Source: Myxococcus stipitatus (GTDB lineage: Bacteria; Myxococcota; Myxococcia; Myxococcales; Myxococcaceae). Taken from it: a stretch of 64,000 nucleotides of DNA. The stretch is taken from contig NZ_JAKCFI010000001.1 in the NCBI RefSeq assembly GCF_021412625.1, positions 62,001 through 126,000 of the forward strand, given 5' to 3'. This document shows, in pieces, positions 17,981 through 42,719 of this stretch. Position numbers and translations under genes: made by a program. Position 1 is the stretch's first letter, and every line of letters begins with the position of its first letter. The notes below the pieces were generated by a model. It saw nothing but the letters and a program-made list of their open reading frames with translations. It was not told where the DNA came from and did not search any database.

Positions 17981-19507
17981 TCAGGGGCGCTGTGCCTTCG
18001 CCCCCATGGCCTCGCGCAGCTGCGACAGGCCGCGGCGCAGCTCGGCCATCTCCGCCTTGAGGGCGTCCACCTCGGCCGTCTTCGCCGCCAGCTCGCGCGT
18101 GCGAAGCTCCAGCGCCTGGATGGCGGCCATGTTCACGCCGTTGATGTCGAGCATGCCGATGCTCTTGTCGCTGGAGCCCAGGCCGAAGGCCGCGTGGAAG
18201 TCCTGCGCGACGGGACCCAGGTGGCGCCCGTCGCCCGTCGCCCCCTTGTAGCGCCAGGTCTCGATGGGAATCCGCGCCACCTTCTCCAGCAGGGCCTCGC
18301 GGTCGACGGGATGGAAGTCCTCCTTGACGTCCCGGTCGGAGGTGCAATCCATCGAGCCCGAGCCGGGCTTGATTTCGCACCCGACGGTCATCGCGGCGTT
18401 GGTCTTCAGCCGGATTCCTCCCAAGGCGCGCACGGTGAACTGGTTGTCCGCGGTGGCCGCTGTCGGCGCGGTGACCGTGCTTCCATCACCCCAGATGAAG
18501 GAGCCGATGAAGCCATCCGTGGAGACCAACCGTCCCATCGCGATGCTGAAGTCTCCGGCCGCGCTGACCTGGCTGCCGATGGCCACCGCATTGCGTCCCG
18601 TCGCGTTGGCCCCGGTGCCCACCGCCAGCGAGGACGACCCCGCGGCGGAGTTCGCGGTGCCCATGCACATCGCGTTGACGCCACTGGCCACGCAGCCATT
18701 GCCGAACGCGGCGGAGCCTGTCCCATTGGCGATACTCAAGTTGCCGGCCGCGAACGAGTTGATGCCGCTGGCCACGCAGCTCTCGCCGAACGCGGCGGAG
18801 CCCTTGCCGCTGGCGGTGGTCGAGGTGCCAGCGGCGAAGGAGAACGCCCCGATGTTGCCCTCGGTCCACTGGGTCTCCGCGCCACCCGCGCGGAACGCGC
18901 CCAGGTGCGGCAGCCACATCATCTTCATCGTCTTGGTCGTCGTGGGGACCTTGCCGACACCTTGCTCACCCTGCGCCAGGATGCCGCCCGCGGCATCCAC
19001 CGTGAGCAGCGGGAGACCGGTCCACTTGGGCGTGTCAGACGTCGCGAGGACCTGGAGCAGGGGGCCGGGCTTGCTCGTGTCCACGGCCGCGTCCACGAGC
19101 AGGTCGGACTTCGTCGTCAGCCGCCCCCCTGTCTGCCCCGTGCCGGACAGCGCGAACGAGCCGGGCTGCGGTGTCGTCCCGTTCTGGATGTAGTCGTCGC
19201 TGCCGGGCAGCGGGATGCGCGCGTCGGCGAGCCGGGGGTCTCCGCTCGCGACCGCGGAGGTCGCTCCGTCGCCGTACTGGATGCTCAGGACATTGTCCTG
19301 GAGGACCAGTCCCGTGCCCACCTCCCAGGAGGGGCCGACGGGCCCCTGCGGACCCTGTGGGCCCTGCGGACCCTGTGGGCCCGGGACACCCTGGGCGCCC
19401 TGAGCGCCTTGCCGCCCATCGACTCCGTTCGCGCCATCGGAGCCGCTGCATCCGGCGCCTCCCAGGGTGACGAGTCCCAGCGTGGCCAGCAGTGCCCTGA
19501 CCTTCAT
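17981..19507 (-). CDS. Lipoprotein with collagen-like repeats, YadA-like head and C-terminal S74 chaperone domain, 508 aa
   Basis: Surface-type trimeric protein candidate. It has a signal peptide with lipobox GGAGC (C20) and GGAGG six bases before the ATG. Residues 26-59 are collagen-like Gly-X-Y, ending GPQGPQGPQGPVGP. Residues about 220-330 repeat SAAFGESCVASG / SAAFGNGCVASG / SLAVGTGANATG / AVAIGSQVSAAG, the pattern of YadA/trimeric-autotransporter heads. Residues about 388-450 match the intramolecular chaperone domain Peptidase_S74: S390-D-R-D-V-K395 gives the Ser-Lys dyad with the expected spacing, then WRYKG and HLGPVAQDFHAAFGLG. A coiled coil (about 465-500) closes the protein. S74 domains trimerise and then cleave themselves off phage tailspikes. 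I infer a lipid-anchored trimeric fibre. TAGAAT at 19542-19537 could be the -10 box. Confidence 0.85.
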   Translation of the reverse strand: MKVRALLATLGLVTLGGAGCSGSDGANGVDGRQGAQGAQGVPGPQGPQGPQGPQGPVGPSWEVGTGLVLQDNVLSIQYGDGATSAVASGDPRLADARIPLPGSDDYIQNGTTPQPGSFALSGTGQTGGRLTTKSDLLVDAAVDTSKPGPLLQVLATSDTPKWTGLPLLTVDAAGGILAQGEQGVGKVPTTTKTMKMMWLPHLGAFRAGGAETQWTEGNIGAFSFAAGTSTTASGKGSAAFGESCVASGINSFAAGNLSIANGTGSAAFGNGCVASGVNAMCMGTANSAAGSSSLAVGTGANATGRNAVAIGSQVSAAGDFSIAMGRLVSTDGFIGSFIWGDGSTVTAPTAATADNQFTVRALGGIRLKTNAAMTVGCEIKPGSGSMDCTSDRDVKEDFHPVDREALLEKVARIPIETWRYKGATGDGRHLGPVAQDFHAAFGLGSSDKSIGMLDINGVNMAAIQALELRTRELAAKTAEVDALKAEMAELRRGLSQLREAMGAKAQRP

Positions 19508-29558: not shown

Positions 29559-30590
29559 ATGAAGGCGATGGTGCTCTGCGCGGGGTTGGGAACCCGCCTG
29601 CGTCCGCTCACCGAGCGCTGGCCCAAGCCGGCGCTGCCGCTGTTGGGCCAACCGCTGTTGCGCTACCACCTGGCGGTGCTGAGGGCGGCGGGCGTCATCC
29701 AGGTGGGCATCAACACCCACCACCTGCCGGACACCATGGCGGACGTGGCGCGGGCCGAGTGCGAGCGCGCGGGGCTGCCGCTGCACGTCGTCCACGAGCC
29801 CGTCATCCAGGGCACGGGCGGCGGCATCCGCGGGCTGCGCGCGTTCCTCGGCGACGGCGACTTCATCGTCTTCAACGGGGACATCCTCTACCCGGTGGAC
29901 CTGCGGCCGGTGGTGGCCATGCACCAGGCCTCCGGCGCGTTGGCCACGATGGTGCTCCAGCCCATGCCGGAGGCGGAGAAGTACGCCGCGGTGGAGCTGG
30001 ACGGCGCCGGGCGCGTGCGGCGCATCGCCGGCCATGGTCCGGGGGGCGAGGGCCTGTCCCCGTGGCATTTCACCGGGGTGCACGTGATGTCGCCGCGCAT
30101 CTTCGACTTCATGCGCGACGAGGGGCCCGAGGACATCAACCGCGAGGTCTACGTGCGCGCGCTCACCCAAGGGCAGGTGGTGCGCGGGGTCCGGGTGGAC
30201 GGGTACTGGTCCGACCTGGGCACGCCGTCGCGCTACCTGGCCACGGTGCAGGACGTGCTCGCCGGCCGGGTGCGGCTGGAATGGCTGGGCGCGGCCTCGC
30301 CGCTGGCGGGGCTGTCGCGCGGGCCGGGCGTGTCGTGGGTCCATCCCGAGGCGCGGCTGGAGGGCGCGCGGGTGGAGGGGCCGGCGTACCTGGGCCGTGG
30401 AGCCCGCGTGGCCGAGGGCGCCTTCGTGGGCCCGTCGGTGGCGGTGGAGGCGGGGGTGGAGGTGGGGGCGGGGGCCCGGCTGGAGCGCGCCGTCGTCTTC
30501 GAGGGCACCGCGGTGGCTCCGGGCGAGGCGCTCACGGAGGTGCTCGCCTGGGGCGCGCACCGGGTGCCCGCGCCGCTCGCGGGGCACTGA
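29559..30590 (+). CDS. murU: MurU-like sugar-1-phosphate nucleotidyltransferase with left-handed beta-helix tail, 343 aa
   Basis: The nucleotidyltransferase domain (about residues 1-230) starts MKAMVLCAGLGTRLRPLTERWPKPALPLLGQPLL, the Rossmann-like pyrophosphorylase signature with the Lys of WPKP. It continues GTGGGIRGLRAFL, the metal-binding FIVFNGDILYPVDL and GYWSDLGTPSRYL. After about residue 255 comes a hexapeptide-repeat tail (VHPEARLEGARVEGPAYLGRGARVAEGAFVGPSVAVEAGVEVGAGARLERAV) forming a left-handed beta-helix. Pseudomonas MurU lacks this tail (about 220 residues), so the protein also resembles mannose-1-phosphate guanylyltransferases. The AmgK neighbour favours uridylylation of MurNAc-1-phosphate. 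GGGGAG six bases before the ATG at 29559 sets the start. Confidence 0.82.
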   Translation: MKAMVLCAGLGTRLRPLTERWPKPALPLLGQPLLRYHLAVLRAAGVIQVGINTHHLPDTMADVARAECERAGLPLHVVHEPVIQGTGGGIRGLRAFLGDGDFIVFNGDILYPVDLRPVVAMHQASGALATMVLQPMPEAEKYAAVELDGAGRVRRIAGHGPGGEGLSPWHFTGVHVMSPRIFDFMRDEGPEDINREVYVRALTQGQVVRGVRVDGYWSDLGTPSRYLATVQDVLAGRVRLEWLGAASPLAGLSRGPGVSWVHPEARLEGARVEGPAYLGRGARVAEGAFVGPSVAVEAGVEVGAGARLERAVVFEGTAVAPGEALTEVLAWGAHRVPAPLAGH

Positions 30591-30650: not shown

Positions 30651-31415
30651 TCAGTTGGCGTGGTAGCGAGCCAGGATGCAGGTGACGTTGTCGTTGCCGC
30701 CGGCGGCGTTGGCCATGTCGATGAGCTGCGAGCAGGCCTTGTCCAGCTCCGGGGTGCGCGCGAGGATCTCCTGCATCTGCGCGTCCGTCACCATGCCGCT
30801 CAGGCCGTCCGAGCACAGCAGGAAGATGTCGCCCACCTGCGGCTCGACCTTCGCCACGTCGACCTGGACGGACTCCTTCATGCCCAGGGCGCGGACGATG
30901 ACGTTCTTGTGGGGGAAGTTCTCGACCTCCTCCGGCGAGAGCTTCTTCGCCTTGAGGTAGTCGTTGAGCAGGGAGTGGTCCTCGGTGATCTGCTTCAAGG
31001 CGCCGGCGCGGAAGAAGTACACGCGGCTGTCGCCCACGTGCCCCACGTAGGCCACGTCCGAGGTGAAGTGCACGCTGACGATGGTCGTCCCCATGCCCTT
31101 GTACTTCGACTCGCTGCTGGCCCGCTCGAAGATGCGCGCGTTGGCGAGCTTGATGCCGGTGGCCAGCCGGTTCTCGTCGTAGTTGCGCTGCTTGTCCATC
31201 TTGAAGGGCCAGGTGCTGTCCTGGTCCTTGGACGTCATCTTGTAGAACTCACCCAGCTCGTCCACGGCGATGCGGCTGGCAATCTCTCCCGAGGAGTGGC
31301 CACCCATCCCGTCCGCGACGATGAAGAGGTGCTCCTCGGGCAGCATGAGGAAGTTGTCCTCGTTGTGATTCCGCTTCATCCCGACGTGGGTGCTGCCGGC
31401 TACCTCGATGCGCAT
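30651..31415 (-). CDS. PP2C-family serine/threonine protein phosphatase, 254 aa
   Basis: Metal-dependent phosphatase of the PP2C/PrpC type. Core motifs are present: GMKRNHNEDNFLM, FIVADGMGGHSSGEIASRIA, GMGTTIVSVHF, VAYVGHVGDSRVYFFRAGAL, ITEDHSLL, FLLCSDGLSGMV and AAGGNDNVTCILARY, whose Asp residues bind the two metals. It is soluble and cytoplasmic, counteracting the many eukaryotic-type kinases of myxobacteria; one such kinase is encoded at 47032-48819 but no direct link is shown. Length is close to that of small stand-alone bacterial PP2Cs. ATG 31415 follows a plausible promoter, TTGACC with a 17-base spacer (31457-31485). Confidence 0.93.
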   Translation of the reverse strand: MRIEVAGSTHVGMKRNHNEDNFLMLPEEHLFIVADGMGGHSSGEIASRIAVDELGEFYKMTSKDQDSTWPFKMDKQRNYDENRLATGIKLANARIFERASSESKYKGMGTTIVSVHFTSDVAYVGHVGDSRVYFFRAGALKQITEDHSLLNDYLKAKKLSPEEVENFPHKNVIVRALGMKESVQVDVAKVEPQVGDIFLLCSDGLSGMVTDAQMQEILARTPELDKACSQLIDMANAAGGNDNVTCILARYHAN

Positions 31416-31456
31416 GCGTGGGGACTCTTCGAAAGGGGCGGGAAACTGGGGGCGGA

Positions 31457-31485
31457 AGTTACCAAAGCGCTTGGAAATCGGTCAA
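31457..31485 (-). promoter_or_regulatory. Possible promoter for the PP2C gene
   Basis: On the minus strand TTGACC (31485-31480) is followed after 17 bases by GTAACT (31462-31457), leaving about 40 bases to the ATG at 31415. The -35 is strong and the -10 weak. Confidence 0.4.
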
Positions 31486-31504
31486 AAGTCGTGCGGGCCG
31501 GGGC

Positions 31505-31882
31505 TCAGGTCGGAGTTCCGGTGGGCGGGGAGGCGGGCTCGAAGCTCAGCCGGTCGCCTTCCTGGGTGCCGCTGGCGGCGAGCACCCCGGCGGGCAGCTC
31601 CAGGACGGAGCGTGCCTGGAAGTACACGGAGGTCGTCCGCCACGGGGGCAGCGCCAGCATCTGCTTGACGATGCGCCCCTGGGCGTCCAGGAAGGCCACG
31701 TCGATGGGGATCCGCATGAAGAAGGTATGGATGGAGTTGCAGGGCTGGATGTGGAGGCCCTGGCCCACGGCGAGCTGCGTCACCCCCATCAGTCCCTTGA
31801 AGCGGCGGGCGAACGTGGTGGCCCGTTCGGCCTGGTCCGCCAGCGGCTTCTGCCGCGTCTCGTTGATCACCTTCCAGCGCAT
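31505..31882 (-). CDS. DUF192-family protein, 125 aa
   Basis: Small DUF192 protein of unknown biochemical role. Family motifs are ATTFARRFKGLMGV near the N-terminus, then GLHIQPCNSIHTFFMRIPIDVAFLDAQGRIVKQMLALPPWR (the CNSIHTFFMRIPIDVAFLD block is diagnostic) and SVLELPAGVLAASGTQEGDRL. Many DUF192 proteins have a signal peptide; this one does not, so it should be cytoplasmic. ATG 31882 is divergent from trmL with only 17 bases between starts, so promoters must overlap the coding regions or lie further out. Confidence 0.88.
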   Translation of the reverse strand: MRWKVINETRQKPLADQAERATTFARRFKGLMGVTQLAVGQGLHIQPCNSIHTFFMRIPIDVAFLDAQGRIVKQMLALPPWRTTSVYFQARSVLELPAGVLAASGTQEGDRLSFEPASPPTGTPT

Positions 31883-31899
31883 GTAGCGCGTTCTACCCC

Positions 31900-32373
31900 A
31901 TGCTCGAATCCCTGGCGCGTCCTCTGCATCTGGTCCTGGTCTCCCCCCAGATTCCCCCCAACACCGGCAACGTGGCCCGGCTGTGCGCGGTGACGGGGTG
32001 TCGGCTCATCCTGGTGGAGCCGTTGGGCTTCTCCATCGATGACCGGCACCTGAAGCGCGCGGGGTTGGACTATTGGGACAAGGTGTTCCTGCGGCTGTAT
32101 CCCACCTACTCGGCGTATGTGGCGGCGTACCCGGAGGCGCGGCGGTGGCTGTTCTCCGCCCGGGCGTCGACGTCGCTGTTCGAGGCGCGCTTCCAGGCGG
32201 GGGACCACCTGGTGTTCGGTTCGGAGGTGACGGGGCTCCTGCCGGAGGTGATGGAGGGGGGCACGGGGACGGCGGTGACGATTCCGATGTTGGAGGACCG
32301 GCGGAGCCTGAACCTGTCCACGGCGGTGGGTATCGGGACGTACGAGGCCCTGCGACAGGTCTGTTTCACGTAG
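31900..32373 (+). CDS. trmL: tRNA (cytidine/uridine(34)-2'-O)-methyltransferase TrmL, 157 aa
   Basis: SPOUT methyltransferase that modifies the wobble ribose of tRNA-Leu. It begins MLESLARPLHLVLVSPQIPPNTGNVARLCAVTGCRLILVEPLGF, with the conserved PxNTGNxxR motif, followed by DRHLKRAGLDYWD, FGSEVTGLLPEVM and the C-terminal knot IPMLEDRRSLNLSTAVGIGTYEALRQ. Length (157) is that of E. coli TrmL, a single minimal SPOUT domain. It is followed 66 bases later by the giant J-domain gene, which has its own promoter. Start at ATG 31900. Confidence 0.94.
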   Translation: MLESLARPLHLVLVSPQIPPNTGNVARLCAVTGCRLILVEPLGFSIDDRHLKRAGLDYWDKVFLRLYPTYSAYVAAYPEARRWLFSARASTSLFEARFQAGDHLVFGSEVTGLLPEVMEGGTGTAVTIPMLEDRRSLNLSTAVGIGTYEALRQVCFT

Positions 32374-32401
32374 GGCAGGCGGGCAGGTCCCCCTCGGCAA
32401 G

Positions 32402-32429
32402 TTGAGGGGCGGTCGGGAGGGACTAGACT
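32402..32429 (+). promoter_or_regulatory. sigma70-like promoter of the giant J-domain gene
   Basis: TTGAGG (32402-32407), 16-base spacer, TAGACT (32424-32429). The expected transcription start, six to eight bases after the -10 box, falls at about 32436-32438, only two to four bases before the ATG at 32440, implying a nearly leaderless mRNA. Confidence 0.5.
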
Positions 32430-32439
32430 GCGCGCCAGG

Positions 32440-35400
32440 ATGACCCCGTCGCAGGCCGCCGAAGCGCTGTATGCCGCCCACAAGTCCCGAGCCACCGGGT
32501 GGTTGACGTTGTCCGCCGGGGGGCGGCAATCGCGGCTGACGCTGCGTGGCGGCGACCTGGTGGGGACGCGGCTGGGGTTCGGCTACCAGAGTCCGGCGCA
32601 GGCCCTGCTGCAGAGCGGGTTGTTGGGGCCGGAGGCGCTGGACGCGCTGTGGGCGAGGGGTGGGGCGGGGGCTCCGGACGAGGAGCTGTTGGAGTCGCAC
32701 GGGCTCGCGCCGGACACGGTGGCAGAGCAGCAGGTGTTGGCCCACGTGCGGCGGTTGAGCGAGCTGGCGGAAGCGGCCGCGTTCGAGCCGGGGAGCGTGG
32801 AGGAGGAGTTCCGTCCCATCGCGGGCTCGCGGGTGGTGCGCGCGGCGCTGGAGCGCCCGGTGGGGGGCTCGGGCGCGCGGGTGTATCGCTGCGTCGACGT
32901 GGAGGCGTGCGCGCCGTGGCTGACGGATGCGTCGGAGCGGGAGCTGCTGAAGTCGCTGGAGACGTTCCGGGAGCCCGAGGCGCTGACTCCGGCGCGAGAG
33001 GCCTTGCTGAGGGTTCTCGAGCGCGAGGGCTGCGTCGAGTCGCTGACGGTGGATGCGTGGGAGGCGCGGGAGCGGACCCGGCGGGAGGAGGAGGCTCGGC
33101 TTCGCGCGGAGGAAGAGGCTCGGCTTCGCGCGGAGGAAGAGGCTCGGCTGGCGGAGGAGGCGCGCCGCGCGGAAGAAGCGCGGTTGGCGGAGGAGGCGCG
33201 GCTCGCGCTGGAGCGCTGGCTCGCGGAAGAGGCGCGAATCGCGGAGGAGCGCCGGCTGGCGGAAGAGGCGCGAATCGCGGAGGAGCGTCGGCTCGCGGAA
33301 GAGGCTCGACTTCGCGCCGAGGAAGAGGCGCGTCGCGCAGAAGAGGCGCGACTGGCGGAGGAGGCGCGCCTCGCCGAGGAGGCGCGACTGGCGGAGGAGC
33401 GTCGGCTGGCGGAAGAGGCTCAACTTCGCGCCGAGGAAGAGGCGCGCCTCGCGGAAGAGGCTCGGCTGGCGGAGGAGCGTCGGCTCGCGGAAGAGGCCCG
33501 TCTCGCGGAAGAGGCCCGTCTGGCCGAGGAAGCTCGCCTCCGCGCTGAGGAAGAGGCCCGTCTCGCGGAAGAGGCCCGTCTGGCCGAGGAAGCTCGCCTC
33601 CGCGCTGAGGAGGAGGCTCGCCTCGCAGAAGAGGCGCGGTTGGCGGAAGAGGCCCGACTTCGTGCTGAGGAGGAGGCTCGCCTCGCAGAAGAGGCGCGGT
33701 TGGCGGAAGAGGCCCGACTTCGCGCGGAGGAGGAGGCTCGCCTCGCCGAAGAGGCTCGCCTAGCGGAAGAAGCTCGCCTCGCCGAGGAGGCTCGTCTCGC
33801 TGAGGAGGCCCGTCTCGCGGAAGAGCGTCGACTTGCGGAAGAAGCTCGCCTCCGCGCGGAGGAAGAGGCTCGTCTTGCGGAAGAGGCTCGCCTCGCGGAA
33901 GAGGCGCGGCTTCGTGCTGAAGAGGAGGCACGACTTCGTGTTGAGGAAGAAGCACGTCTGGCCGAGGAGCGCCGCCTAGCGGAAGAGGCGCGGCTGGCGG
34001 AAGAGCGTCGCCTTGCGGAGGAGGCTCGTCTCGCTGAGGAGGCGCGGCTTCGCGCCGAGGAGGAAGCTCGCCTCGCGGAGGAGGCACGTCTTGCTGAGGA
34101 GCATCGTCTCGCCGAAGAGGCGCGACTTCGCGCGGAAGAAGAAGCCCGCATCGAGGAAGAGCGTCGGTTGGCGGAGGAAGCCCGCCTTGCGGAAGAAGCT
34201 CGCCTCCGCGCGGAGGAAGCGGCCCGGCTCGCCGAAGAGGCGCGGCTGGCGGAAGAGGCACGGCTTCGCGCAGAAGAAGCTCGCCTCGCAGAGGAGGCCC
34301 GCCTAGCGGAGGAGGCGCGTCTCGCGGAAGAGCGCCGTCTCGCAGAGGAAGCCCGCCTCGCGGAAGAGCGCCGTCTCGCAGAGGAAGCCCGCCTCGCGGA
34401 AGAGCGCCGTCGCGCAGAGGAAGCCCGCCTCGCCGAAGAGCGCCGACTCGCAGAGGAGGCCCGCCTCGCGGAAGAGGCGCGTCTCCGTGCCGAAGAGGAG
34501 GCCCGTCTCGCGGAAGAGGCCCGCCTCGCGGAAGAGGCTCGCCTTGCGGAAGAGGCTCGGCTGGCGGAAGAGGCCCGACTTCGTGCTGAGGAGGAGGCCC
34601 GTCTCGCGGAAGAGGCTCGGCTGGCGGAGGAAGCTCGACTTCGTGCCGAGGAAGAGGCGCGTCTGGCCGAGGAGCGCCGCCTAGCGGAAGAGGCTCGGCT
34701 TCGTGCTGAAGAGGAGGCTCGCCTCGCGGAAGAGGCTCGACTCCGCGCCGAGGAAGAGGCTCGTCTTGCTGAGGAGGCCCGCGTCGCGGAAGAGCGTCGT
34801 CTCGCGGAAGAGGCCCGACTCCGTGCCGAGGAAGAGGCCCGTCTTGCGGAAGAGGCTCGAGTCGCGGAGGAGACTCGACTCCGCGCCGAGGAAGAGGCTC
34901 GTCGCGCAGAAGAGGACCGGTTGGCGGAGGAGGCACGGCTTCGCGCCGAGGAGGAAGCTCGCCTCGCGGAAGAGGCACGTCTTGCTGAGGAGCGTCGTCT
35001 CGCCGAGGAGGCACGGCTTCGCGCCGAGGAGGAAGCTCGCCTCGCGGAAGAGGCACGTCTTGCTGAGGAGCGTCGTCTCGCCGAGGAGGCACGGCTTCGC
35101 GCGGAGGAGGCTCGCCTTGCTGAGGAGCGTCGTCTTGCCGAGGAGGCACGGCTTCGCGCGGAGGAGGAGGCCAGACTCGCGGAGGAGGCTCGACTCCGTG
35201 CCGAGGAAGAGGCTCGTCTCGCCGAAGAGGCTCGCCTCGCGGAGGAGGCCCGCCTAGCGGAAGAGGCTCGCCTCTCTGAAGAGCGCCGCCTCGCAGAGGA
35301 AGCCCGCCTAGCGGAAGAGGCTCGTCTCGCGGAAGAGGTTCGCCTCGCTGAAGAGCGCCGCCTCGCGGAGGAAGCCCGCCTAGCGGAGGAGGCTCGTCTC

Positions 35401-37764
35401 GCGGAAGAGGTTCGCCTCGCTGAAGAGCGCCGCCTCGCGGAGGAAGCCCGCCTAGCGGAGGAGGCTCGTCTCGCGGAAGAGCGCCGCCTAGCGGAGGAGG
35501 CCCGCCTAGCGGAGGAGGCTCGTCTCGCGGAAGAGGTTCGCCTCGCTGAAGAGCGCCGTCTCGCGGAAGAGCGCCGTCTGGCGGAGGAGGCTCGCCTCGC
35601 GGAGGAGGCCCGTCTCGCCGAAGAGCATCGTCTCGCGGAGGAAGCCCGCCTCGCCGAGGAGCACCGTCGCGCGGAGGAGATTCGCCTCGAGGTCGAGCGT
35701 CGCCGCGCGGAGGCGGTGCGTCGAGCAAAGGAGGCCCGCGTCGCGGAGCAGGCCCGTCAGGCGGAGGAGGCGCGGTTGGCGGAGGAGGCGCGTCAGGCCG
35801 AGGCCGCCCGCCTCGCGGAGGAGGCCCTTCAGGCTCCAGCGCCCATCGGCCCTGTCAGCGACGACGCCGAGGCCCTCACGCTCGACGTGGGCGACATCAT
35901 CCCCGAGGACGATGCGCTCCCCGTCTCCCCTGGCCGCGCCACGAATGTCCCGCCGCTCGCGTCCTCCTCGCAGTCGAGCGGGCTCTCCTTCCACGCCGAG
36001 AGCCAGGATGCGCTGCGCTCCGCGCGCGAGCGCGCCCAGGCGGAACTCGCCCACGACCTGGAGGAAGCTCGTCGTCGTTCGCGAGTGCAGCCGCTGGAGC
36101 CCTGGCTCGCCGACGAGCCGCCGCGCACCACGCCCCCTGTCCGGACCCGGGACCAGGTCCCGGTGCAGATCGAATCCTGGCGGGCGAAGGACACCGAACT
36201 CACGCCTCCCTCCGACGCGGAGGCGGAGCTCCCCCTGCTGGAGGCGGAGCCCGAGCCCGAACTCTGGGCCGACGCGATGCCCGAGTCGGAGCCGCTGCCG
36301 ACGCCTCCCCCCCTTCCTCCGCGCGCCCCCTCGGGGCCGCCGATGCTCACGCCCGTGGCCGCCCCGCCCGCCGCCAGCCGGGGAGGGCCGCCGGTGCTCA
36401 CGCCCGTGGCCGCCGCGCCGCGCGCGGAGCCGCCTCGCCTGGAGTCCTCCGACAGCCTCTGGACCCCCAAGCCCGCGCCCGTCGCCGCGCCGCCGCCGCT
36501 GCGGCTGGGGCCCGCCGCTCCCCGGGCCAGCGACGAAGACCTGTGGCGCATCGTCTCCTTCGACAAGGACGAGGCCGCCGAGAACCTGACCGCCTCCTTC
36601 GAGGCGGCGCTCCAGCAGGTGGACGCCCACCTGGAAACGCTCGTCCGCTCGGATGTCAATCAGGCGAACGTCGGCGGCGACGAGCCGCCCGTCGAGGCCA
36701 TCGTCGAGGCGACGATCGAACCGACCTTCGGGCCCTTCCCCGGTGACAACGGGGAGCCAACTGGAGACACTGAGTGGGCCGAGCCGTCCGGAGACCTGGA
36801 CGACTGGGACTTCGACGAGGACGACGTGGCGGCAGATCCCTCCAATCCCGACGAGGCAGCCAAGCTCCGGCGACAGCGCCTGCTGCGCCGTGCGATGGAG
36901 AACATGGGCGTGTTGGGCACCCGCGCCGCTCCGGCCTCGGCCCCGGTGGGCGCCGTGGCGTCCTCCCCCGGCGATGCTCCCGCGCCCGCCGCCCCCACGG
37001 AGCCCCCCAAGCCGGACGAGGCGCGCCACGCCCAGCAGATCGAACAGCGCTACGCCGACGTCCAGGCCCGCCGCGACCACTTCTACGTGCTGGGCGTGTC
37101 CCAGGACGCCACGCGCGAGCAGGTCAAGGCGGCCTTCCTCGGCCTCGCCAAGGTGTTCCACCCGGATCGCCTCCCGCCCACGCTGCCGCACCTGTCGCAG
37201 AAGATCACCTCCGTCTTCGAGGCCATCCGCGAGGCGTACGAGGTCCTCTACGACGACGCCCGGCGCAAGGCGTACATCCAGTCCCTCCAGGCCCAGCAGG
37301 TCGCGCCCAAGGCCCCCGCGGCCACCGCCTCGCCCGGGGCGCGCCCGGCCCCCGGTCGCCCGGAGAGCAGCGCGGACGACCTGTACAAGATGGGCGAGGT
37401 CTATTTCCGCAAGCGCGACTTCCAGACCGCCTCGGAGCACTACGAGCGCGCCCACTCCCTGGACCCCAAGGCCACCTATCTGGCCGCCCGCGCCTGGGCC
37501 ATCTACATGGATCCGGCCCGCAAGGCGGACATGGCCAAGGCCAAGCAGATGATGCTCGACGCAGTGCGGGGGGACCCCAACTGCGACCGGGCGCACTACC
37601 AGCTGGGCGTCATCGCCCGTGTCGAGGGGGACATGGACCGGGCGGAGAAGCACTTCCGGGAGGCGGTGCGCGCCAACTCCAAGCACCTGGAGGCGAACCA
37701 GGAGCTGCGGCTGATCGACATGCGGAAGAAGAACCCACCCAAGAAGGGGGGCTTCTTCCGCTGA
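32440..37764 (+). CDS. Giant protein: DUF4388-like N-terminus, ~900-residue Glu/Ala/Arg/Leu helical repeat, J-domain and TPRs, 1774 aa
   Basis: Residues about 1-100 resemble a DUF4388/PATAN module ([33 protein letters not shown]). Residues about 214-1130 are an almost unbroken repeat of LAEEAR hexads mixed with LRAEEEAR octads, strongly helical. The strict hexads do not give a coiled-coil heptad, so a single alpha-helix rod is likely; if continuous it would be about 135 nm (0.15 nm per residue). A Pro-rich acidic linker follows (about 1130-1540). A J-domain (about 1543-1618, [21 protein letters not shown] with HPD near 1574) should stimulate a DnaK ATPase. TPRs (about 1640-1760) close the protein. 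No signal peptide, so cytoplasmic. A near-leaderless promoter precedes it. Function unknown; its neighbour shares the DUF4388 and TPR elements. Confidence 0.85.
33081..35830 (+). repeat. 2.75 kb coding tandem-repeat tract (18- and 24-bp units)
   Basis: DNA encoding the [14 protein letters not shown] rod. Superimposed higher-order tandem copies are visible: 33491-33540 equals 33551-33600 (period 60); 33601-33660 and 33661-33720 differ at a single base (period 60); a 72-base unit recurs around 35341/35413; a 78-base unit recurs around 34933/35011. All periods are multiples of three. Synonymous codons vary between distant copies, so expansion was repeated over time. Confidence 0.9.
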
Positions 37765-37966
37765 GGGCCGCCCCCGCTCCGCGCGTCAGGCCCCAGGCTC
37801 GGCGCGCGGTGGGAGCCGCCCCTGGGGCGCCCTTGGACCTCCCGGCTGGCGGGAGGGCAGCCTGCCCCACCCGCGCTCCAACCCATTGACATGCCTGGAA
37901 AGCGGGCAGGATGCTCCCCGCGCCGGGCTCTTCGCGAGTCGTCTTCCGTGATGAAAGGCAAGTAAC

Positions 37967-40786
37967 GTGGCCAAGCAGCACCTGCTCCTGGTGGATGGAG
38001 ACGCGAAGAGCCTCCGCGTCATGGAGGTCAGCCTGAAGAAGGCTGGCTTCTCCGTGACGACGGCCATTCACGGCAAGGATGCGATCGAGAAGGTGCAGAT
38101 CAGCCCTCCGGACCTGGTGCTCGCGGACACCAAGATGCCGGAGATGGACGGCTTCGAGCTGTGCAAGGCGCTCAAGTCGGATGAACGCTTCAAGTTCATC
38201 CCGTTCGTCTTCCTCACGAGCCAGAAGTCCGTCGAGTTCAAGGTGCGCGGCCTGGAGCTCGGTGGCGACGACTACCTGACGAAGCCGATCTACATCAAAG
38301 AGATCGTCACCCGCGTGAAGATGATCCTCCAGAAGGCGGAGAAGGAGAGGATCGAGAAGCGGGAGACGACCAAGGGCGGCTTCGGCGGCAGCCTCGCGGA
38401 CATGGGCGTGGTGGACCTGGTCCAGACGTTCGAGATCGGCCGCAAGACGGGCGTCATCTCCATCCAGGGCGAGCGCACCGGCACCGTCTACTTCAAGGAG
38501 GGCCGCGTCATCGACGCGGAGCTGGGCCGGCTCAAGGGCGAGAACGCCTTCTACCGCCTGCTGAACACCTTCGAGGGGCAGTTCGACGTCCAGTTCACCT
38601 CGCTGGACCGCCCCGAGCGAATCGAAATCTCCACGCAGGGCCTGCTGATGGAGGGCATGCGCCGGCTCGACGAGTGGGGCCGCATGCTCGAGCAGCTGCC
38701 TCCGCTGGAGACGGTGTTCGAGATCGACTACCACCAGCTCGCCGACCGCCTCTCCGAGATTCCGGACGAGGTGAACGGCCTGTTGCGCCTGTTCGACGGC
38801 AAGCGCGCGCTCAGCCGCGTGGTGGAGGACTCGGACTTCGAGGACCTGGCCGCGCTGGGCATCATCAGCAAGCTGTACTTCGAGGGCCTCATCCGCGAGC
38901 TGGGCAATGCCCCGCTGGAGCCGGTGCAGAGCAGCAAGCCGGGCATCGAGCAGTGGCTCAACGCCGCGCCGCCGCCGAGCGCTCCCGCGGAGCCCGCGCC
39001 CGTCGCGCCGCCGCCCGCCGCCGCGCTGGAGCCGCCGCCGGCCGCCGCCGTGGTCGAGACTCCCGCCGCCGCGGTCGAGGCGCCCGTCGCCGCGCGCGCC
39101 ATGCCCCCCAGCGTGCTGGCGCCGCCCGCGGGCGTGGAGGAGGAGCCGGTCCAGGCGCCTCCCGAATCCGTGGAGCCGCGTTCGGGCCCCGTGGCCCCCG
39201 CCGCCGTGGTCGTCTTCCCGGCCCGCCCCAAGCGCTTCCTCGGCGGGGCCAGCGGGGACGTGGACACGGAGGCCCCCACGCTGCCGCCCGCCGTGGCGGA
39301 AGGGTCGTCCTTCCTCGTCGAGCCGCCCCCGGCCCACCGCGTGGTGGAGCACGCCCGGCGCAGCCTGCTGCTCGACTGGAGCCGGGTGGACACCGAGGGC
39401 ATCAGCGCGCCCACGACCTGGGGGCCCGCGTCCGGCTGGGCTCCCGGGCCTCGCGCCTTCACGTCGTCCGGCGCGCCGTCCGCGGTGGCTTCCGCCACCA
39501 GCGCGCCTGCGCCCGAGCCCTCCGCTCCTCCCCGCGCGCCCATCTTCGGCGGCGCCGCCGTGGGGCCCAATCCGTTCCCCCCCGTGCCGCCCCCGACTCC
39601 GGCGCCGCCCTCGTCCGAGGTGACGCTGGTGAGCGGCGAGGAGGGCGCGGGCGTGGACATCGATCCGGTGGCGGAGGTCGAGGAGGTCCCCGTCCCCGCG
39701 CCGCAGCAGCTCGCGCTGCCGCCCTATCCGGGGCACGGCGCCCCCGAGCGGCCCGCCCCGACCGTCAGCGAGGAGCCGCCGACGCCGACGGCCCTCCCTC
39801 CCACCCCCATCGCTCCGGCGCCCAGCGTCGCCGCGCCCGTCGTGGCTCCCACGCCCGTGAGCGCCGCGCCCATCACCCGGCCCGTCGAGCCTCCCGCGCC
39901 CGTCGCGTCCCGGCCCGTCGAGCCTCCCGCGCCCGTCGCGTCCCGGCCCTCTTCCTCGGAGGACGTGGCCGTCGCGCCGCCCAAGCGGACGGGGCTCTAT
40001 GTGGGCGTGGGGCTCGCGCTCATCGCCGTGGTCGCCGCGGTCGTGGTCATGGGCCAGGGCGACAAGCCACCGGCGCCTCCGGAGAAGGCGGCGGTCCAGA
40101 CGTCGAACGTCGCGGCGCCCGGGAAGGATGAGCACCCCACGGCTCGGGATTCGTCGCCAGCCCCCGTGAAGGCGGAGGACGCCGGGACGGCGGTGGCCCA
40201 GACGCCCGTGCCCACGACGGGCGCGGACTCCGGTACGTCGGTCGTCGGGACGCCGGCGCCCGCGACGGGAGCGGACTCGGGGACGGCGGTCGTCGAGACG
40301 CCCGCGCCCCAGGGCGCGGACTCGGGGACGGCGGTGGGCCAGGCGCCCGTGAGCCCGACGGCGGCGGACGCCGGCACGGCGGTCGTCGAGGCGCCGCCCC
40401 AGGTCAATCCGGAGGAGCGCTTCGCGCAGGTCATGAAGCTGGCGCGCGGCGCCACGGTGTCCAGCCGCTACAAGGCGGCCGCCACCAACTTCCGCGAGGC
40501 GCTCAAGCTCAAGCCGGGCTCGCTCGAGGCGAAGGCCGGCCTGGGCATCGCGCTGGTCAACGGCTTCGAGTCGGAGGGCGCGTTCCGGGAGGCCACCAAG
40601 CTGTTGGGCGAGGTGGTCGAGGAGGACGAGAAGAACGCCCGCGCCTGGCTGTCGCTGGGCATGGCCCTCCAGTCCATCGGGCGGAATTCCCAGGCGGTGA
40701 CGGCCTACAAGAAGTATCTGTTGCTGGAACCCACGGGGGCTTCCGCCAAGGAGGTCCGCTCGATTCTGGATACCATCGGAAAGTGA
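37967..40786 (+). CDS. Receiver-DUF4388 protein with transmembrane helix and C-terminal TPRs, 939 aa
   Basis: Residues 1-125 form a response-regulator receiver ([11 protein letters not shown]; phospho-acceptor D54 in [30 protein letters not shown]). Residues about 133-330 are DUF4388/PATAN ([48 protein letters not shown]). A 340-residue Pro/Ala-rich linker follows, then a single membrane helix at about 676-698 ([19 protein letters not shown]). A second linker has four repeats of about 17 residues ([15 protein letters not shown] type), and TPRs run from about 812 to 939. The receiver should be cytoplasmic and the TPRs outside the cytoplasm, an odd layout for a response regulator. GTG 37967 has AAAGG upstream. 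It follows the giant J-domain gene by 202 bases and shares its DUF4388/TPR theme. No histidine kinase is in the window. Confidence 0.88.
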
Positions 40787-40836
40787 GCAGGCGGCGGAGC
40801 GGTCCGCCCCCGTTTCTGGAAGTGAAGTGAGTCGCC

Positions 40837-41832
40837 TTGCTCGTCCTCGGTCTGGAAACCTCTTGTGATGAGACCGCCGCCGCCGTCGTGGAGGACGGTC
40901 GTCGCGCGCTGTCGGACGTCGTCTCCACCCAGGTGGACATCCACCGTCGCTGGGGCGGAGTGGTGCCGGAGCTGGCCTCCCGCAACCACATCGTCCAGGT
41001 GATGCCGGTCGTCCACGAGGCCCTGTCCCGGGCGGGCAAGACGCTCGACGACATCGACCTCATCGCCGTCACGTCCGGCCCCGGTCTCATCGGCGCGTTG
41101 CTCGTGGGGCTGCAGGTGGCCAAGGGGCTGAGCCTCGCCACCGGCAAGCCCTTCGTCGGCGCCAACCACCTGGAGGGCCACCTGCTGGCCATCCGGCTGC
41201 TCGAGGACGCCCCGGAGCCACCGTTCCTCGGGCTCGTCGTCTCCGGGGGACATACCAGCCTCTACGAGGTGAAGGCGTTCGGCCAGTACCGGCTGGTGGG
41301 CAGCACCCGCGACGACGCGGCGGGCGAGGCCTATGACAAGACGGCCCGCATCCTCGGGCTGCCGTACCCGGGCGGGCTGCCCATCGATCAGCTGGCGCGG
41401 CAGGGGAACCCGGAGGCCATCCGCTTCCCGCGCGCGCTGCCGGGCGACAGCTTCGACGTGTCCTTCTCCGGCTTGAAGACGGCGGTGTTGCACCACGTGC
41501 GGAAGCACGGCGTGCCGGAGGGCCAGGCCCTGTCGGACCTGTGCGCGTCGTTCCAGGAGGCGGTGGCGGACGTGCTGTCGAAGAAGCTCGTGGCCGCCGC
41601 GCGCCGGCTGGGCCACCAGCAGCTGGTGCTGTGCGGAGGCGTGGCGGCCAACTCCCGCCTGCGGGCGCTGTGCAAGCAGCGCGCGGAGGAGCGGGGGCTG
41701 CGCATGTTCCTGCCGCCGGTGCGGTTGTGCACGGACAATGGCGCGATGATCGCCGTCGCGGGGTATGAGGCGTGGCGTCGGGGCCTGCGTGGGGATTTCC
41801 GCCTGGCGGCGGACCCCGCGTGGCGCATGTGA
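40837..41832 (+). CDS. tsaD: tRNA N6-adenosine threonylcarbamoyltransferase TsaD, 331 aa
   Basis: Catalytic subunit for t6A37 formation in ANN-decoding tRNAs. The ASKHA fold is complete: VLGLETSCDETAAAVVEDG, VVPELASRNHI, VTSGPGLIGALLVGLQVAKGL, the metal-binding NHLEGHLLA (HxxxH), LVVSGGHTSLYEV, DDAAGEAYDKTARILGLPYPGG and the late CGGVAANSRLR and CTDNGAMIAVAG. Length is normal. The best homology start is TTG at 40837; the ribosome site is only a weak GAAG/GTGA run. The stop (TGA, 41830-41832) overlaps a possible GTG of rsmA, so the two are probably co-transcribed. Confidence 0.94.
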   Translation: MLVLGLETSCDETAAAVVEDGRRALSDVVSTQVDIHRRWGGVVPELASRNHIVQVMPVVHEALSRAGKTLDDIDLIAVTSGPGLIGALLVGLQVAKGLSLATGKPFVGANHLEGHLLAIRLLEDAPEPPFLGLVVSGGHTSLYEVKAFGQYRLVGSTRDDAAGEAYDKTARILGLPYPGGLPIDQLARQGNPEAIRFPRALPGDSFDVSFSGLKTAVLHHVRKHGVPEGQALSDLCASFQEAVADVLSKKLVAAARRLGHQQLVLCGGVAANSRLRALCKQRAEERGLRMFLPPVRLCTDNGAMIAVAGYEAWRRGLRGDFRLAADPAWRM

Positions 41833-41846
41833 GCGAGGGACATCCG

Positions 41847-42719
41847 GTGGAATCACCCAGAGACATCCTCAAGCGGCATGGCCTGCGCGCCAAGTACAGC
41901 TGGGGCCAGAACTTCCTCGGGGACGAGGACGCCCTGGAGGCCATCGCGGACGCGCTGCACCTGCGCGAGGGCGAGCACGTGGTGGAGCTGGGCCCCGGCC
42001 TGGGCCACCTGACGCGCTTCCTCGCCGCGACCGGCGCTCGCGTCACCGCGGTGGAGCGGGACCGGGACATGGTGACGGTGCTGGAGAAGGAGGCCATCCC
42101 CGGCGTGCGCGTGGTGGCTGGCAACGCGGCCACGGTGGACTTCGCCCAGGTGGCTGGCGCGCCCGAGGTCGCCGTCGCGGGCAACCTGCCGTATCACCTG
42201 ACCAGCCCCATCCTCTTCCGGGTGCTGGAGCAGCGATCGCACGTCACGCGCGCCGTCTTCACCCTCCAGAAGGAGGTGGTGGAGCGGCTGGCCGCGGAGC
42301 CGGGCTCGCGCGACTACGGCCTGCTCACGGTGCTGCTCGGCCTGCACTTCGACGCGGAGAACGTCCTCACGCTGGAGGCGTGGCGTTTCCACCCGCCGCC
42401 GAAGGTGGACTCCGCGGTGCTGTCGCTCACCCGCCGCGCCGCGCCGCGCGCGCCCATCGTCGACGAGGCTCGCTTCACCCGCGTGGTGAAGGCGTCCTTC
42501 GCCCAGCGTCGCAAGACGTTGATCAACTCCCTCAAGTCCGACAAGACGCTGGCGCCCCCGGACGTGCTGCTCCAGGCGCTGGAGACGGCGGGCGTCGACC
42601 CGCAGCGTCGCGCGGAGACGCTCGCGCCGGAGGAGTTCGCCGCCATCGAGCGCGCGCTCGGTCCGGTGAAGCCGGGTGCTCCCGCGCCCGAGGCCCTGGA
42701 CGCGGACACCGAGGAGTAG
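41847..42719 (+). CDS. rsmA: 16S rRNA (adenine(1518)-N6/adenine(1519)-N6)-dimethyltransferase RsmA (KsgA), 290 aa
   Basis: Dimethylates the two adjacent adenines of helix 45 in 16S rRNA. Motifs are RDILKRHGLRAKYSWGQNFLGDEDALEAIADAL, the SAM site VVELGPGLGHLTRFLA, AVERDRDM, the catalytic NLPYHLTSPILF (NLPY) and VFTLQKEVVERLAAEPGSRDYGLLTVLL. The C-terminal domain includes FHPPPKVDSAVL and FAQRRKTLINSL. GTG 41847 has AGGGA six bases upstream and gives the family N-terminus MESPRDIL; a GTG at 41829 that overlaps the tsaD stop is the alternative. A short acidic C-terminal tail is extra. Converges on the small gene at 42738. Confidence 0.95.
   Translation: MESPRDILKRHGLRAKYSWGQNFLGDEDALEAIADALHLREGEHVVELGPGLGHLTRFLAATGARVTAVERDRDMVTVLEKEAIPGVRVVAGNAATVDFAQVAGAPEVAVAGNLPYHLTSPILFRVLEQRSHVTRAVFTLQKEVVERLAAEPGSRDYGLLTVLLGLHFDAENVLTLEAWRFHPPPKVDSAVLSLTRRAAPRAPIVDEARFTRVVKASFAQRRKTLINSLKSDKTLAPPDVLLQALETAGVDPQRRAETLAPEEFAAIERALGPVKPGAPAPEALDADTEE

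Follow-up and report, generated by a model that had tools for sequence, protein, structure and literature searches.

We analysed a 64,000-nucleotide stretch of the Myxococcus stipitatus genome (contig NZ_JAKCFI010000001.1; hereafter the window) and found that one of its genes, at 32440-37764 (+), encodes what profile matches class as a J-domain protein, with a charged helical tract of 925 residues set between its two ends. The reading frame is open over its full length (1774 residues), and the product is a genuine family-wide protein of unusual architecture, in which selection keeps the composition and charge pattern of the tract as its exact length and register drift. We propose that it is a J-domain co-chaperone with a docked N-terminus and a charged-helix leash grown by repeat gain; the case for this reading as a whole is, in our estimate, evenly balanced.

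A preliminary description of this DNA had laid the protein out as a DUF4388-like N-terminus, the tract, a J-domain with its HPD tripeptide and tetratricopeptide repeats (TPRs), and this layout was borne out by Pfam and by the conservation of HPD. The DnaJ profile (PF00226) matches at E 8.6e-13, with 48.6 bits, above the curated cut-off of 27.8, and TPR_1 at E 4.3e-12; HPD is unchanged in all 40 aligned orthologues (alignments A1 and A2, comprising 40 of the 51 full-length proteins of our first set). Profile match and HPD together class the protein as a J-domain protein. DUF4388 (PF14332) matches weakly in the 1774-residue protein (E 0.006; 17.1 bits, below the Pfam cut-off of 25), and we therefore call the domain DUF4388-like. 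The same profile reaches E<=0.01 in 33 of 40 family members (best 7.3e-7) and exceeds its cut-off in all 10 outgroup proteins scanned, so the assignment comes from the orthologues and not from the 1774-residue sequence by itself. An AlphaFold2 (AF2) model of the first 215 residues predicts a compact domain (mean pLDDT 90.2, pTM 0.87), for which Foldseek returned no match at E<=0.001 and the VIA fold list placed mitoribosomal and other unrelated chains on top (Z 4.6-4.5). No membrane helix was predicted in the protein outside the tract, where the best 19-residue mean hydropathy is 0.98. Part of a conserved basic linker motif, RRQRLL..AM.NMG, also appears, by eye, in 7 of the 10 full tract-free outgroup ORFs. 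We recognised no paper on this protein in a literature search that would miss papers using the locus tag alone, and DUF4388 by name turned up there only in work on a Chloroflexi nitrite reductase. MXAN_0503, which may or may not be the gene studied here, is listed as 'DnaJ domain protein, authentic frameshift' (PMC3986340).

A profile of the N-terminal domain matched 111 of 195 genomes of the phylum. This search of Myxococcota genomes, proposed in the preliminary description, found the domain in 86 of the 96 genomes searched in the family (Myxococcaceae) and in 25 of 99 outside it; the M. stipitatus genome itself has a single place matching the N-terminal 214 residues. We fetched all 86 family loci, with Myxococcus dinghuensis (89% over the N-terminus) and M. 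xanthus AM003 among the named relatives. Full-length proteins in one frame are encoded by 53, and 31 are cut by contig ends, as expected where assemblies meet a repeat; in the other 2, both from draft genomes (loci L061 and L084), the N- and C-terminal parts lie in different frames. We rejected a chance or wrong frame, as the two parts share a frame in 53 orthologues and, in the M. stipitatus gene, synonymous changes far outnumber non-synonymous ones. One public record carrying a Myxococcus-type gene, Comamonas sp. KCTC 72670 (L032), is probably mislabelled.

The tract begins at residue 205-214 in all 53 full-length proteins. Its length ranges from 457 to 1314 residues in 49 of the first 51 (median 935) and, with L157 (624 residues), in 50 of the 53; the remaining three have short tracts of 63 (L095), 62 (L096) and 178 residues (L154). 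L150, cut by a contig end, has 58 tract residues and was excluded from full-length counts. Among the 25 closest pairs the largest length difference, 478 residues, separates L057 and L059, whose N-termini are 97% identical and whose tracts have 1104 and 626 residues, a disparity that speaks against a precise form of the J-domain positioning envisaged in the preliminary description. Tract length showed no correlation with genome size (Spearman 0.12, p 0.42, n=51).

The M. stipitatus tract consists of 34% Glu, 27% Ala, 22% Arg and 14% Leu, lacks Pro and Gly, and has 204 Arg and 1 Lys as its basic residues. Exact LAEEAR and LRAEEEAR units cover 616 of the 925 residues (67%), rising to 756 (82%) when [12 protein letters not shown] and LRAEEAR are added. 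We counted 97 hexads and 23 octads. Neighbouring units form 70 pairs of type 6-6 and 39 of type 6-8 or 8-6, and just 2 of the 97 hexads are flanked by octads on both sides. These counts do not support the alternation between single-helix and coiled-coil register suggested earlier from 6+8 pairing: the hexads come in blocks, and octads are frequent in certain lineages only. Over the family, median spacings are 60% six-residue, 2% seven and 1% eight. Octads serve as extra units in the 1774-residue protein, L045, L079-L083 and L085-L087, and other lineages use five-residue steps (L057), seven (L092), 4+2 (L069, L070) or mostly octads (L098). Because the extra units differ among lineages, register is not what selection holds.

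Purifying selection on the tract is visible in its codons: the 97 hexads of the 1774-residue protein occur in 70 distinct DNA versions (pS 0.68, pN 0.08, pN/pS 0.118). The tract is also far from chance in its charges, like charges at i+3/i+4 making up 0.4% of its pairs versus 16% in shuffles. We saw no DNA-level selection against identical adjacent repeats (same-codon frequency 0.538 versus 0.502 expected; 46 tracts, 1921 LAEEAR pairs) and no LAEEAR-like array elsewhere in the genome, all 11 matches lying inside this gene (150 of 695 candidates scored). At 33061-35835 third-position GC is 0.66, versus 0.92 for the remainder of the gene, and CTT, GCT, CGT and GAA are far commoner in the tract than outside it. 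In 49 of 49 genes the tract has the lower third-position GC (average 0.65 versus 0.89).

We compared the tracts of 49 of the first 51 full-length proteins with shuffled sequences (the short-tract L095 and L096 were excluded; L157 and L154, found later, enter the tree, tail and start counts and not these statistics). Opposite charges at i+3/i+4 averaged 27.9% versus 13.3% shuffled, and like charges 1.3% versus 14.8%, above and below the shuffled level, respectively, in all 49 tracts. The power of the Leu pattern at periods of 3.4-3.8 was below shuffled in 48 of 49, and occupancy of heptad a/d positions (0.50 versus 0.61 shuffled) in all 49. Two 300-residue SMC stretches from the same genome, taken as controls, showed the opposite, with Leu power of 5.2 and 4.2 versus 1.9 shuffled and a/d occupancy of 0.75-0.76 versus 0.52-0.54. 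We therefore rejected a canonical heptad coiled coil, upholding what the preliminary description had concluded from the hexads. Charge and Leu patterns together are the signature of a charged, non-coiled-coil helix and no proof of a monomer, and we term the tract single alpha-helix (SAH)-like, not a proven SAH.

Several observations weaken the case for a single helix. L083, which is the exception in Leu power, its relatives L079-L082 and L098 all lie near the shuffled level, and with Ala counted as apolar only 37 of 49 tracts stay below it. Opposite pairs have a density of 0.30, higher than in the SMC coils (0.08-0.09) and lower than in the repeat unit of a proven SAH design (0.71). Because the 49 tracts share ancestry, and because the hexad repeat itself builds in part of these numbers, they do not amount to 49 independent tests. 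Ala and Leu make up 41% of the tract; in published SAH design work, Ala contacts seemed to make an Ala-richer design dimerise, and a high Arg content promoted aggregation (PMC5347031). Both the Ala and Leu content and that design would also suit a tract that self-associates, either as an Ala/Leu-based bundle of helices or as a coiled coil of an unusual kind (for example, the hexad alpha/beta type), to give an oligomeric, stiffer scaffold. By arithmetic, the L and both A of one LAEEAR share a face, and once Ala is counted 12 of the 49 tracts fail to drop under the shuffled level; on an ideal helix, however, each hexad turns this apolar patch through about -120 degrees, faster than a normal supercoil could follow. 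In addition, the Leu pattern has less power, and the a/d positions are less occupied, than in shuffled sequences, and spacings vary among lineages. The alpha/beta hexad coiled coil is a trimer with a beta-layer motif such as [aliphatic]-A-T-K-[polar]-[DE] (PMC4786415), and LAEEAR, by eye, is without the T-K. We judge self-association unlikely.

If the tract is a single helix, its 925 residues would have a contour of 139 nm. The preliminary description pictured a rigid rod of 135 nm, a picture that gives way once stiffness is considered: SAHs, typically 40 to ~200 residues long, have a persistence length of ~15 nm (PMC5347031), at which a worm-like chain of 925 residues has a root-mean-square (rms) end-to-end distance of ~61 nm. 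From 626 to 1137 residues the rms reach goes from 49 to 68 nm, a near doubling of tract length altering reach by 40%. As tract length drifts fast, it makes no precise ruler; the calculated reach probably fits a drift-tolerant leash, and neither a ruler nor a rigid rod.

To trace where the tract came from, we fetched 12 of the 25 matching genomes outside the family, all of the same order, and scanned 10 of their proteins with Pfam (L180 and L183 were left out). In 10 of the 12 loci the ORF is complete, includes HPD and lacks the tract; in the other 2 it is cut. DUF4388 was found in 10 of the 10 scanned proteins and DnaJ in 9, the negative one being a cut ORF. Their neighbours include the SpoU methylase (9 of 12), a PP2C phosphatase (8 of 12), a response regulator (8 of 12) and TsaD (10 of 12), with the methylase and J-gene pair inverted in L173. 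The expectation in the preliminary description that relatives would carry the repeat intact held in part: it held for the long-tract proteins of the family, and failed for these tract-free homologues, for the 3 full-length members with 62-178 residues and for the 2 drafts with parts in different frames. In L182 (family f7), an orthologous DUF4388 protein cut by a contig end has a different, more amphipathic charged helix at the same place, perhaps an independent gain.

In a midpoint-rooted tree of the J-domain and TPR region (63 rows), the 50 long tracts form one group (branch support 95/86), and the proteins with 62-63 and 178 tract residues branch outside it; a very long outgroup branch, L181, falls beside L154 and is not trusted. 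The tree suggests stepwise growth of the tract from none through ~60 and ~180 to over 450 residues. All 50 long-tract proteins carry the C-terminal tail K-G(1-4)-[FLI]-F-[RGS], and none of the 3 short-tract proteins or the 10 full outgroup ORFs does; among the latter, L176 and L184 finish in basic LF sequences that resemble it loosely. We tentatively suggest, as something short of probable, that this is the longest natural single-helix leash known to us in bacteria, with a contour of ~140 nm and a reach of ~60 nm. It would have arisen in still visible steps (none, ~60, ~180, 450-1300), acquiring a new K-G-[FLI]-F tail as well, and its ancestor would have lacked the tract, as proteins of sister families do today.

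The same history could reflect a length-neutral repeat array, in which slippage expanded the hexads and selection removes only residues that break the helix or solubility, with no leash function. Such an array would accommodate lengths of 457-1314 residues that differ even between sister species, and the sizes of the 466 gaps counted when the 25 closest pairs were aligned, with 155 of 5-8 and 68 of 9-14 residues alongside 162 of 1-4 and 81 longer; J-TPR orthologues elsewhere, moreover, manage without a tract. It sits less easily with the J+TPR-tree clade, whose 50 members all keep at least 457 residues with no loss seen within it, with the purifying selection on tract residues in the 1774-residue protein and with the fixed start of the tract in all 53 proteins, none of which shows that length matters. 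We regard a neutral array as rather unlikely.

In the leash reading, the DUF4388-like N-terminus would dock the co-chaperone at a fixed site, and, by analogy with their families, the J-domain would switch an Hsp70 and the TPRs would select a client or partner. In Myxococcaceae, the LAEEAR hexad array that separates the docking end from the J-TPR end would have grown by repeat gain to form, as the sequence statistics suggest, a single charged helix of great length that lacks a leucine seam. This helix may act as a semi-flexible leash with ~40-75 nm rms reach, and one docked molecule could thus bring its J-domain to clients in a large volume.

Synteny makes the adjacent response regulator, with its DUF4388 domain and predicted membrane helix, the first candidate docking partner. 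PP2C and the SpoU methylase accompany the gene in 60 of 60 family loci (first-fetched set), the response regulator is present in all 53 loci reaching far enough, and TsaD in 51 of these, the remaining 2 being cut. Over its first 244 residues the response regulator shows 95-100% identity within the genus, versus 76-89% for the J-protein N-terminus, and its TPRs stand at its far end. Weighing against the leash reading, a direct comparison aligned the family N-domain with the neighbour's DUF4388 over 31 columns (E 0.0084, probability 4.8). The two genes are 202 bases apart, and we therefore make no claim of co-transcription; a scan of 31400-41900 gave 0 promoter-like sequences and 2 terminator-like ones versus 4.1 expected. 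Counted as places and not as genes, matches in the genome number 13 for the J-domain and 19 for Hsp70; of the Hsp70 matches on this contig, the closest is ~690 kb away. For M. xanthus, 15 predicted Hsp70s are reported, with no J-domain partner named for them in the available part of that source (PMC8265645).

The protein could instead belong specifically to a type IV pilus or exopolysaccharide (EPS) circuit, in which DUF4388 (PATAN) would dock on the pilus motor or a regulator and the J-domain would serve SglK or StkA. Here we take DUF4388 and PATAN to be one family. A nucleotidyl transferase two genes upstream (29559-30590) could serve polysaccharide precursors, and residues 49-104 weakly resemble the N-terminal domains of PilF/MshE (Z 3.7-3.2), although this fold match is under the level that the tool calls meaningful. 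Cyanobacterial PATAN domains bind the pilus motor PilB (PMC10519157, PMC7690835), and S-motility needs SglK, while StkA restrains EPS (PMC8265645, PMC4319316). Against this circuit, Pfam recognised no pilus gene among the 34 window ORFs or parts scanned, and orthologues lacking the tract exist in further families of the order; we think it quite improbable.

Among known systems, the leash reading is closest to the single alpha-helix 'dog leash' of INCENP (PMC4571873), in which, likewise, what had been predicted to be a coiled coil is a charged single helix that extends the reach of a catalytic partner. The INCENP helix is eukaryotic, ~213 residues long in the chicken fragment and shown experimentally, whereas the Myxococcus tract is bacterial, has 925 residues of Glu/Ala/Arg/Leu hexads and is known from sequence. 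The cyanobacterial response regulators PixE and PixG resemble the J-protein in having a DUF4388/PATAN-type domain as a docking module, a role that is proposed for the J-protein; they have receivers and no J-domain, whereas the J-protein has no receiver and its neighbour has one (PMC7690835). The tract-free orthologues from outside the family but within the order (L173-L179, L181, L183 and L184) share the related locus and the DUF4388-J-TPR order, and differ in having 11-19 residues in place of the tract and no K-G(1-4)-[FLI]-F-[RGS] tail. DNAJC3 (PDB sequence match 2y4t) likewise combines a J-domain and TPRs in one chain. Its J-domain does not precede the TPRs, unlike that of the Myxococcus protein, where the DUF4388-like domain and the long tract precede both.

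Two further proteins of the M. stipitatus genome combine DUF4388 with a J-domain match. L135 (C4:323453-329566, a 2038-residue open frame) has a 762-residue helical stretch as well, and differs in its DUF4388 match (E 0.00036, below cut-off), in HPL for HPD and in an ordinary amphipathic helix placed before DUF4388. L139 (C13, 631 residues) has a receiver in front and no tract reported; its receiver-DUF4388-J-TPR order unites in one chain domains of both the J-protein and the neighbouring response regulator.

If the leash reading is right, bacteria put the eukaryotic dog-leash trick to work in an Hsp70 co-chaperone, at several times the typical SAH length (40 to ~200 residues). The family would then offer a natural series with and without the tract, at many lengths, in which the role of leash length is testable in a genetically tractable organism. 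Coordinates of the gene and its neighbours are collected in Table 1.

Table 1. The J-domain protein gene, its parts and the syntenic genes around it (positions in the window)
Feature	Position	Strand	Remarks
Whole coding sequence	32440..37764	+	1774 residues: DUF4388-like / charged helix / linker / J-domain / TPR
N-terminal domain, residues 1-207	32440..33060	+	Divergent DUF4388 with helical insertion; Pfam and AF2
Charged helical tract, residues 208-1132	33061..35835	+	LAEEAR hexads with LRAEEEAR octads interspersed
Pro/Ala/acidic linker	35836..37074	+	Probably mostly disordered, judging from composition alone
Conserved basic motif in linker, [14 protein letters not shown], residues 1477-1490	36868..36909	+	
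J-domain	37075..37275	+	Pfam DnaJ; AF2 model; HPD at 37159-37167, residue 1574
TPR domain	37375..37686	+	Pfam; fold matches to TPR structures
C-terminal tail KKGGFFR	37741..37761	+	
Response regulator	37967..40786	+	Receiver, DUF4388, one predicted membrane helix and TPR; syntenic, candidate partner
Predicted membrane helix of response regulator, residues 677-695	39995..40051	+	Mean hydropathy 2.75
SpoU-family methylase	31900..32373	+	Syntenic; by name presumably TrmL-like
PP2C phosphatase	30651..31415	-	Syntenic
TsaD	40837..41832	+	Syntenic

Elsewhere in the window, 17981-19507 (-) encodes a myxobacterial protein that combines YadA head repeats with a Peptidase_S74 (chaperone of endosialidase) domain.

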